Shown piece after piece: positions 108-2,669 of a stretch of DNA of 42,894 bases. The notes beneath the pieces are model-generated. The model did not search any database. It was not told the origin of the DNA and worked only from the letters and a program-made list of their open reading frames with translations. How positions within the stretch are numbered: the first letter of the stretch is position 1; each line of letters starts with the position of its first letter. The position numbers and the translations under genes were made by a program. The stretch is from an uncultured Spartobacteria bacterium (GTDB lineage: Bacteria > Verrucomicrobiota > Verrucomicrobiia > Chthoniobacterales > Chthoniobacteraceae): contig CAIRYQ010000050.1 in the NCBI GenBank assembly GCA_903882875.1, positions 1 through 42,894 on the forward strand, written 5' to 3'.

Positions 108-244
108 CTATTCTCGAAGCCCTCGCCGAGCCTGTCTGTGTCAAGCAACCGGATAAGCAGGGTAAAAAGGCGGACTTATCCCGTTCGCAACGGAAACCTC
201 TGACGGACTGAGTTGAAGCCTGCCGCCCTCTTTTTGAGTGGCGG

Positions 245-481: not shown

Positions 482-760
482 ATGAAGATTCCGAGCCATC
501 TGAGCGTTTCAGTACGCGTCTGCTATCAGGGAAAAATTCATCGCAAGATTGCCTCTCTCGGAGAGGATGTGAACGGTAGGAGTGCTATCTATCTGTTCGA
601 TCTTCCGCGCGGATATGCCGAGGAACACGACATACAGCAGATCGATTATCTGTTCCGAACCAAGTGCATCGTGCCTGACGTATCTGGTGAATCGCAGTGG
701 GTTGCGCAGGAAATCATGGACTTGGATGCGTTTGCCGGAGATGACAGCGTTATAGAGTGA
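482..760 (+). CDS. hypothetical protein (92 aa)
   Basis: This 92-codon frame starts MKIPSHLSVSVRV and is acidic towards its end. It alternates hydrophobic and charged residues like a folded alpha/beta protein (VCYQGKIHRKIASLGED, AIYLFDLPRGY, WVAQEIMDLDAF). No family is recognised. There is no clear ribosome binding site, and a minus-strand ORF (646-900) overlaps its 3' half, so at most one of the two is likely real over that stretch. This frame is more coherent across its whole length. It lies in the accessory left end of the window. Confidence 0.35.
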   Translation: MKIPSHLSVSVRVCYQGKIHRKIASLGEDVNGRSAIYLFDLPRGYAEEHDIQQIDYLFRTKCIVPDVSGESQWVAQEIMDLDAFAGDDSVIE

Positions 761-1445: not shown

Positions 1446-1529
1446 GCTCGCGTGGCGAAACTGGAAAACGCAACGGTCTTGGGGACCGTCATCTTCACGG
1501 ATTTGCGGGTTCAAATCCCGCCGCGAGCA
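1446..1529 (+). tRNA. class II tRNA with anticodon UGG (isotype mismatch)
   Basis: A complete cloverleaf can be drawn. Acceptor stem GCTCGCG (1446-1452) pairs with CGCGAGC (1522-1528); T8; D arm 1455-1471 with A14 and G18G19; anticodon stem ACGGT/ACCGT (1473-1477, 1485-1489) around a 7-nt loop CTTGGGG with anticodon TGG at 1480-1482. A 15-nt variable region follows (1490-1504) that can form a short ATC/GAT stem, then a T arm GCGGG/CCCGC with loop TTCAAAT. The discriminator is A1529 and CCA is not encoded. Anticodon UGG reads proline codons, but the long variable arm, D arm pattern and A73 resemble tRNA-Leu. It may be a mobile-element or suppressor-like tRNA. It lies 55 bp from the 3' end of the IS1595 transposase gene. 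Confidence 0.75.
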
Positions 1530-1584: not shown

Positions 1585-2565
1585 TTATTTCCGCGTCAGT
1601 GGCTTGTACGTGAGCCGCTTTCCACCCGTCTTGCGCAGCCCTTTGACCATGCGTTCGCCGTCTGAAATCTTGCGGTGGTTCCACTTGAAATCCGCCTCTA
1701 CCAAGTATCGGCCAAGATGCTTTTTCGAGACGTGGTGAAACGCCCCTACGATGCTGCGCTTGATGAGAGCGAAGCTGCTTTCGACGGTGTTGGTGGAGAT
1801 CAGGACGCCGTTCTTCCTGAGCGCGTACTGCTTCTTGCTGTGATTCACTGGATGATGCTCGCGCACTTCGTTGAGGCGAGAGTAGAGCCGGGAATCATCG
1901 GTCATCGTGCGGGCATCCTCGGCGGTATGCTCGACGATTGCGGCGCGCAGGTTCGCGCTGTTCACGCGCTCCATCACCATTGACCGCTTCGTGCCGTCCC
2001 GCTCGACGAGCGACACCACGGGCGTCTTGTTGTCCATCGCCTTTGTCATCCGCCCGTCCTTGTATTCGATGCGCGTCTTGCCGCCCACGTAGGTCTCGTC
2101 AATCTCCACGGTGCCGGACAGCTTCGCGATGAACGCTGGATCGGCCATCGCGTGCCGGATTCGGTGCGCCATGAACCACGCGGATTTGTAGCTCCCCTTG
2201 TCGCCCCACAGATGGCGCTTGAGTTGCATCGCGCTGATTCCTTTTTTCGCCCCGCAGATGAGATACCAAGCGATGAGCCACTTGTTCATCGGAATGTGCG
2301 AGTCCTCGAAAATCGTGCCGATGGTGGAGCGGAACTGTTTGCCGCACGCGCCGCACTCCCACAGCCCAGCGCGCACCTTTGCCTCAGCGTTGTGCGTGCG
2401 CTTGCCGAGCCGTGAGGCATCCGCATTCCCGCAATGAACGCACTGCACGCCATCCGGCCACCGGAGCGTTTCAAAGTAAGCCAACGCGGTTGCCTCGTCG
2501 GGAAATCTGCGGGCCAATTCAAGCAGCGTGAACTCGTCTGGCGTGCCGTGATTCGTCGTCTTCAT
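1585..2565 (-). CDS. IS1595-family (ISXO2-like) transposase
   Basis: This DDE-superfamily transposase has 326 aa and appears intact. It has an N-terminal zinc ribbon (Cys42/Cys45 and Cys71/Cys74), then a typical ISXO2-like catalytic domain. The first catalytic Asp is in EIDETYVGG (D156), the second is around TDDS (223-224), and the third motif is TNTVESSFALIKR followed by HHVSKKHLGRYL. Length and motif order match the family, so the element could still be active. The ATG at 2565 is the natural start, and the coding end is convergent with the tRNA. Proteins of this family excise and insert the surrounding IS, usually with 8-bp target duplications. Confidence 0.95.
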   Translation of the reverse strand: MKTTNHGTPDEFTLLELARRFPDEATALAYFETLRWPDGVQCVHCGNADASRLGKRTHNAEAKVRAGLWECGACGKQFRSTIGTIFEDSHIPMNKWLIAWYLICGAKKGISAMQLKRHLWGDKGSYKSAWFMAHRIRHAMADPAFIAKLSGTVEIDETYVGGKTRIEYKDGRMTKAMDNKTPVVSLVERDGTKRSMVMERVNSANLRAAIVEHTAEDARTMTDDSRLYSRLNEVREHHPVNHSKKQYALRKNGVLISTNTVESSFALIKRSIVGAFHHVSKKHLGRYLVEADFKWNHRKISDGERMVKGLRKTGGKRLTYKPLTRK

Positions 2566-2669
2566 GCGCAGAGAATACGCGCTCTGATTCCGTTGTCAAC
2601 GGGATAATTCCGTAAAAAGGCCGTAAAATGGCCTGTTCTTACATTATCCCCTCCATCCGACACCGCATA

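Follow-up and report, generated by a model that had tools for sequence, protein, structure and literature searches.

Insertion sequences of the IS1595 (ISXO2-like) family encode a zinc-ribbon DDE transposase, are bounded by terminal inverted repeats (TIRs) and produce a target-site duplication (TSD) of typically 8 bp, and some members carry passenger genes. Among rare bacterial tRNAs with odd anticodons, the allo-tRNAs possess a long variable arm. Their acceptor/T-stem geometry is described as 8/4 or 9/3 (PMC7609411). In tRNA-ProX of Streptomyces and Kitasatospora, the body and the anticodon belong to different amino acids: this tRNA is described as a proline body bearing the anticodon of Ala, Asn or Thr together with A33 and A34, and as paired with a special ProRS, and its function in its hosts is given as still unknown (PMC11415595). 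The nematode nev-tRNAs, which have a variable arm and a Gly or Ile anticodon, are described as being charged with leucine in vitro (PMC4300185).

Here, a 42,894-nt stretch of DNA (the window) was analysed, in which a class II tRNA gene with a leucine-type body and the proline anticodon UGG lies inside an IS1595-family transposon. In contrast to the IS1595 elements known to us, the passenger is an identity-mismatched tRNA gene, and the codons of the transposase track its anticodon. IS1595 elements with passenger genes and bacterial dual-identity and allo-tRNAs are already known. A transposon-borne mismatched tRNA tied to the codons of the transposase was not found in the open-licence literature among the matches listed. 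We know of no IS1595 case of a mismatched tRNA passenger with anticodon-tracking transposase codons, nor of a transposase link for the nev-tRNAs, which share with the window tRNA a variable arm and a non-leucine anticodon but are nematode genes.

A leucine-type tRNA gene inside an IS1595 transposon

An earlier note, made from the sequence alone, had proposed a class II tRNA with an intact cloverleaf, a 15-nt variable arm, a leucine-like body and a proline anticodon. ARAGORN made a single tRNA call in the window, tRNA-Pro(tgg) at 1445-1530, and the Rfam family RF00005 matched exactly 1446-1529 with 54.6 bits (E 3.7e-9), well above the gathering threshold of 29. Together with parsing of the gene, these results confirmed the class II form; the anticodon UGG was given by both ARAGORN and parsing, the latter placing it at 1480-1482, and A73, A15:U48, A20a and a leucine-type D arm bore out the leucine-like body. 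The gene is 84 nt long, with 7/7 acceptor pairs, 5/5 T-stem pairs, the D stem GCG/CGC, the anticodon stem ACGGT/ACCGT and the loop CTTGGGG. T8, A14, G18G19, A15:T48, A20a, U33, U34 and A73 are present, and the CCA end is not encoded after A73. When 25 such tRNAs were aligned (the window tRNA and locus L104 included), 98.2% of the stem cells were paired, and 146 stem cells carried double changes against a shuffled mean of 40, a value that none of 500 shuffles attained. Given this pairing and these double changes, this type of tRNA is not a product of chance or decay.

The suggestion that the gene recalls the allo-tRNAs did not hold as class membership. Rarity, a long variable arm and an odd anticodon are shared, but the geometry of the window tRNA is the normal 7/5 and its core is of the leucine type, and identity with the allo-tRNAs was rejected. 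Like tRNA-ProX, it combines in one bacterial tRNA a body and an anticodon of different amino-acid identity. However, tRNAs of the present kind have a leucine body, mostly a proline anticodon, and U33, and are transposon-borne with no synthetase seen; the proline body, A33/A34 and neighbouring ProRSx gene of tRNA-ProX are absent from the window case.

The mobile context evoked by the earlier note proved to be real: a TIR and TSD finder, whose scores are raw values without random-sequence calibration, delimited a complete IS1595-family transposon at 171-2612, with TIRs matching at 19/22 positions and a perfect 8/8 TSD, and the tRNA is its cargo. The features are as follows.

163-170, no strand: left TSD, TAAAAAGG, 8/8 identical to 2613-2620
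171-192, plus strand: left TIR, 19/22 positions matching the right repeat
482-760, plus strand: candidate cargo ORF of 92 aa without Pfam match, of unsure gene status
1446-1529, plus strand: class II tRNA with leucine-type body (ARAGORN, Rfam, parsing); anticodon UGG 1480-1482, variable arm 1490-1504, A73 at 1529
1585-2565, minus strand: IS1595/ISXO2-type transposase of 326 aa (PF12762, E 4.5e-32; PF12760, E 7e-12)
1600-1602, minus strand: site 3, CCA codon 322, C-terminal tail, in low-confidence model segment 310-326
1849-1851, minus strand: fourth CCA, codon 239, inside the DDE domain in a confident part of the model; not a recurrent site
2137-2139, minus strand: site 2, CCA codon 143, linker before the DDE domain, in low-confidence segment 142-144
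2539-2541, minus strand: site 1, CCA codon 9, N-terminal tail, in low-confidence segment 1-10
2591-2612, minus strand: right TIR (TIR and TSD finder)
2599-2572, minus strand: sigma-70-like match TTGACA, 16 nt, TATTCT (1 found against 1.0 expected by chance)
2613-2620, no strand: right TSD, TAAAAAGG (TIR and TSD finder)

By Pfam, the transposase comprises a zinc ribbon at residues 22-77 and a DDE domain at 148-296, which, with the TIRs and the 8-bp TSD, places the element in the IS1595 family. The sigma-70-like match at 2599-2572 on the minus strand could drive the transposase. Further small ORFs are present on both strands within 171-1370. An ORF survey of the element revealed no synthetase-sized ORF besides the transposase, and no gene for a DNA-binding regulator was seen beside the tRNA in the window element.

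The transposon is single-copy in its host, where the remaining two IS1595 matches show 36 and 37% identity. One of them, a transposase at C23:49466-50383 (36% identical), lies 272 bp from an odd tRNA at 50653-50725 (L056 / L158). This tRNA reaches only 38.4 bits with RF00005, is enclosed by matched repeats without a target duplication, and has an anticodon loop readable as UCU with A33 or as CUA in a 9-nt loop. At the IS1595 copy on host contig C56 (L159), a tRNA was not found.

Distribution of the tRNA and of tRNA-bearing elements

The host, probably a member of the Verrucomicrobiota judging by gene content and relatives, has an assembly of 5.78 Mb in 129 contigs that gave 43 RF00005 matches. 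When ARAGORN was applied to these 43 loci, it showed an ordinary class I tRNA-Pro(UGG), the presence of which the earlier note had proposed to check, along with tRNA-Pro(CGG) and all five tRNA-Leu (UAA, UAG, CAA, CAG, GAG). Since the host owns an ordinary tRNA-Pro(UGG) and the full leucine set, the window tRNA is an extra. When 57 genomes (its own included) were searched, 12 had a match, and the full gene was present solely in its own genome; the other 11 had fragments of 22-34 bases only.

A pattern of leucine body plus UGG anticodon was found in 2 viral contigs and in 13 stretches of a collection of 84,980 species, 11 of which were real tRNAs; L067 and L072 matched the pattern by chance and were removed. 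The assembly titles of the pattern-found tRNAs, mostly metagenome assemblies where named, include Acetobacteraceae, Chloroflexi, Acidobacteriaceae, Phycisphaerales, Verrucomicrobiia and others. The sole match in the phage collection was the tRNA-Leu(UAA) of the huge phage LR756511.1 (82.7% over 75 nt). It differs in bearing a leucine anticodon, and a phage-tRNA origin was rejected on that ground. In a control scan for tRNAs with a leucine D arm and a base 35 other than A, 84 viral stretches were reported. Among the 80 viral control loci read, 68 had at least 4 anticodon-stem pairs, with the anticodons GTT (24), TTA (6), GCT (6), TGG (5) and others. Viral GTT, GCT and GTG tRNAs were inspected by eye, and their acceptor ends, as we judge them, seem matched to Asn, Ser and His. 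These tRNAs (L079, L085, L089, L092 and others within L073-L150) thus resemble genuine Asn, Ser and His tRNAs that have a class II body, and, with acceptor ends apparently fitting the anticodons, they were rejected as the same case as the transposon-borne tRNAs.

An IS1595 transposase lies within 1.4 kb of the tRNA in 8/12 genomic loci (window included), and was not found in the stretch examined at the UGG loci L058, L059, L061, L062, L066 and L069. TIRs with an 8/8 TSD enclose both tRNA and transposase in the window and in L068, L070, L071, L109, L167, L179, L190, L199 and L228; later additions were L277 and, with an 8/8 TSD, L294, L367, L369, L371, L374, L375, L376, L397, L399 and L423. The TSD of L060 matches at 7/8 positions, and L064, L065, L084 and L194 have terminal repeats without a matching duplication. 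Within the sequence examined, 15/32 UGG elements have a TIR of at least 16/22 and a TSD of 8/8. At L203 the neighbouring tRNAs are outside the element, and L104, which lacks a TIR, was taken off the transposon-borne list. A transposase-first search, with tRNAs called by ARAGORN and the covariance model, gave the same picture as the tRNA-first search; its profiles were built from tRNA-linked transposases, and its counts do not give the share of tRNA carriers among all IS1595 elements.

Such tRNAs recur in IS1595 elements from several phyla. Among the leucine-core tRNAs in or beside the elements, the anticodon UGG was the commonest, followed by UGC (L084, L228, L281, L374, L375, L376; the tRNAs of L375 and L376 are identical), AGG (L088, L279), GGA (L179) and UUA (L414). 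The UGC, GGA and UUA elements have the same leucine-type core and A73 as the UGG elements. No leucine anticodon was found among the class II tRNAs inside the elements read; a tRNA-Leu(CAA) at L288 lies 2.7 kb from the transposase, beyond its repeats and within a phage tRNA array, and the AGG tRNA of L324 lies outside the repeats found. Because captured host tRNA-Leu genes would show mainly leucine anticodons, it is the mismatch itself that is retained. The variable arm ranges from 5-6 nt (L387, L396) to 27-35 nt (L386, L403, L367, L401, L404), and is thus not the conserved point, which lies in the core, A73 and the anticodon.

The tRNA is preceded on the same strand by an HTH_3 gene in L071, L179 and L228 (one ORF between), by HTH_3 and M78 peptidase gene(s) in L190 (1934-3130), and by an ORF judged by eye to be coiled-coil and winged-helix-like in L060, L064, L065, L068 and L199; in L167 the latter is downstream. 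Since a gene for a DNA-binding protein precedes the tRNA in many elements, this arrangement suggests that expression of the tRNA is under control. HTH_3 and M78 gene(s) also directly precede the UGG tRNA at L062:2299-3478, where an IS1595 transposase was not found in 6.2 kb. A common cargo protein was sought, and the alignment of small ORFs was weak (mean column identity 25%). L065, L071 and L275 each have two tRNA genes of differing odd type within one TIR pair, and other odd tRNAs in or near elements are the second tRNA of L275 (CGC, serine-like core) and those of L388 (TAT) and L389 (TTA and TAT).

Aminoacyl identity and codon choice in the transposase

In bacteria, A73 is a leucine determinant. 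For E. coli, the source describes A15-U48, G18G19 and A20a as essential to the leucine set, and the proline set as including G72 and G15-C48 (PMC9976931). The window tRNA has all of the leucine determinants A73, A15-U48, G18G19 and A20a, and lacks the leucine anticodon base A35, its anticodon being UGG. Of the proline set G72, G35, G36, A73 and G15-C48, it has G35, G36 and A73, but C72 and A15:U48 instead of the remainder. Across 27 class II tRNAs tabulated (L104 among them), A73 occurs in 26 and A15:U48 and A20a in 25 each. The pattern-found tRNAs were partly selected for the D arm; in the nine transposase-found tRNAs free of that selection (L167, L179, L190, L194, L199, L228, L275, L277, L281), A73 and A15:U48 occur together in 8/9, with A20a as well in 7. 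Because the LeuRS determinants are kept, including in the transposase-found tRNAs, the window tRNA is likely charged with leucine by the host LeuRS. The earlier note had envisaged a missense-type decoder charged with Leu or Ser; the leucine half of that proposal stands, and serine charging is unlikely given A73 and the non-Ser core.

In the window transposase, 4/8 proline codons are CCA, and prolines 22, 37, 92 and 182 are encoded by CCC or CCG. An AlphaFold2 model of moderate quality (8 sequences, mean pLDDT 72) has low-confidence segments at 1-10, 56-63, 83-88, 142-144, 301-304 and 310-326, the first, fourth and last of which contain sites 1, 2 and 3. In the first 18 UGG elements, CCA recurs at four alignment columns: 67 in the N-terminal tail, 257 and 261 in the linker preceding the DDE domain, and 582 in the C-terminal tail. 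There it accounts for 31/33 proline codons against 5/90 at ten control proline columns. This discovery result is no test, because the four columns were picked on these same elements. The test proper used 12 UGG elements that came to light once the columns had been fixed; in these, CCA made up 23/25 proline codons against 3/63 at structural prolines (p = 8e-16). In 35 new transposases without detected tRNA, CCA accounted for 10/21 at the special columns and 17/137 at the controls; the former figure is due in part to short flanks, as L398 and L400 of that group proved to be UGG tRNA carriers. With these two relabelled and column 260 added, the 32 UGG elements had CCA at 61/67, against 2/22 in 69 complete elements, bounded by TIRs and TSDs, in which no class II tRNA was detected (p = 1e-12). 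At least one site was CCA in 30/32 UGG elements and in 4/69 of the latter, counts that, like the tree pairs below, also use the neighbouring columns 58, 581, 583 (and 258). At the control proline columns, the CCA share was 8/164 in UGG elements against 30/299 (p = 0.075). "Without detected tRNA" refers to ARAGORN and, for most but not all loci, also to the covariance model; L104 is counted in the tRNA-bearing codon group and never in the UGG counts.

The codon cells are non-independent, and the sole correction for kinship is a tree built without the special columns, in which 18 independent pairs of UGG and non-UGG elements gave 10 discordant as expected, 0 against and 8 ties. Close kin of UGG elements, L420 (complete, without such a tRNA) and L421 (none in 12.5 kb), have non-CCA proline at sites 1 and 2, as do L434, L435 and L438 at site 2. 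Exceptions occur on both sides: CCA is found at a site despite no detected tRNA in L195, L273, L163, L169, L178, L301 and L436 (site 2), L433 (without detected tRNA) is CCA-rich throughout its transposase, and site CCA is lacking in L060 (disrupted transposase) and L063 (cut off).

Elements with other anticodons were also compared. In the AGG element L088, sites 2 and 3 are both CCT, and 5/6 UGC elements have GCA at column 210, a codon never used by the 13 UGG elements with alanine at that column. GCA at column 210 is also present in L290, L370, L372, L373 and L413 (without detected tRNA) and in the AGG element L279. Misfits are L279, without CCT at sites 2 and 3; L179 (GGA), without any TCC codon; L084 (UGC), without GCA at column 210; and L414 (UUA), without an inner TAA. 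Stop read-through by the UUA tRNAs is unsupported, since L104, which has a TAG stop, lacks a TIR and no inner TAA occurs in L414.

In eight ORFs of the host contig, CCA accounts for 17/259 proline codons, so few host codons would be touched by a leucine-charged UGG tRNA. In the cargo ORFs of ten UGG elements the share is 26/147. At the CCA positions, the relatives' mean leucine share is 0.088 against 0.030 at other proline codons (p = 0.007), and their mean proline share 0.140 against 0.364 (p = 3e-7). A plain reading of CCA as leucine holds only by half: the leucine share is raised, yet close kin bear proline at site 2, and leucine is not the ancestral residue there, since close kin without detected tRNA have proline.

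A proposed role for the tRNA and its alternatives

Considering the codon link and the leucine-type core, we favour with moderate confidence the proposal that the transposon-borne missense tRNA places leucine at chosen proline codons, in hinges and tails, of its own transposase, so that the supply of tRNA tunes the enzyme. The host LeuRS, which does not depend on the anticodon, would charge the element tRNA with leucine; the charged tRNA would compete with the host tRNA-Pro(UGG) at CCA, and the transposase would emerge as a Pro/Leu mixture at the CCA sites in a ratio set by the amount of element tRNA. A newly arrived element would make all-proline transposase, and leucine forms would build up with more copies, or where a neighbouring DNA-binding regulator permits expression of the tRNA. 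The leucine forms would alter transposase activity, most likely lowering it; a brake is favoured over activation, and this direction is a guess. Leucine is not simply required, because close kin in which no tRNA was detected retain proline at sites 1 and 2, encoded by codons other than CCA. Given that these kin use plain proline and that leucine is directly encodable, the gain must lie in the supply-dependent mix. The pattern points to an element that re-reads part of its own message, and dose-dependent control appears the likeliest purpose of the tRNA. More tentatively, the family may represent a private change of the code, possible but not quite probable in our estimate: each element would bring a leucine tRNA that reads one foreign codon (CCA, GCA or CCU), this codon would be set at transposase hinges, and the composition of the enzyme would report element dose and limit or license jumping.

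Alternatively, the gene might be a disguised proline tRNA, accepted by ProRS through G35, G36 and A73 and supplying CCA decoding where this codon is rare. The anticodon, G37 and A73 suit ProRS, as does C1:G72 in L059, L061 and L063; CCA is indeed rare in the host contig, and proline is found at sites 1 and 2 in the kin without detected tRNA. We nevertheless consider a proline tRNA unlikely. The window tRNA has neither G72 nor G15-C48, and among the 27 tRNAs C1:G72 is confined to L059, L061, L063 and L281 and G15:C48 to L275. The same leucine-type core and A73 recur under UGC, GGA and UUA anticodons, the host owns a tRNA-Pro(UGG), and a supply role would favour CCA at every proline, which is at odds with 8/164 in the conserved columns. 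It is also improbable that the codon pattern is a mere side effect of leucine insertion at CCA, with selection purging CCA from important prolines and sparing tolerant joints. The location of the three recurrent sites in low-confidence model segments and the lower CCA share at control columns (p = 0.075) agree with such purging, but purging alone would leave a background CCA share at the joints, not 61/67, and would not explain the 2/22 of elements without detected tRNA.

Phage tRNAs are described as evading tRNA-targeting defences (PMC11555353), and the gene could act as an anti-defence or decoy RNA that replaces or titrates host tRNA cut by an anticodon nuclease, with no leucine insertion intended. 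Related tRNAs in viral contigs and a Schlafen/AlbA_2 gene in one element (L109) are in keeping with this idea; it predicts neither the anticodon-codon link in the transposase nor the occurrence of a leucine body with Pro, Ala, Ser and stop anticodons, and we regard it as rather unlikely. That an IS happened to land beside a decayed or accidental leucine tRNA is extremely improbable: UGG is one base (35) from the leucine anticodon UAG and the CCA end of the window tRNA is not encoded, but the stems covary strongly, the tRNA lies within TIRs and TSDs in many diverged elements, and no leucine anticodons occur among the tRNAs inside elements.

Missense-decoding bacterial tRNAs are known and their purpose is not; in the present case a target can be named from the sequence, namely three codons of the adjacent transposase. 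If the favoured proposal of leucine insertion is true, a transposon would be controlled via ambiguous decoding that depends on a tRNA, and several phyla would harbour a mobile portion of altered genetic code. A single tRNA gene and a single transposase gene in a laboratory strain would suffice for a direct test.

Two minor observations were made. In five genomes of one genus (G076, G079, G088, G164, G271), transposase relatives each contain one in-frame TAG; at the two of these relatives examined as loci, L252 and L253, ARAGORN did not find a tRNA. In the window, just beyond the right end of the transposon, 2663-2917 contains dense, overlapping imperfect inverted repeats with arms of up to 122 nt that are 71% complementary.
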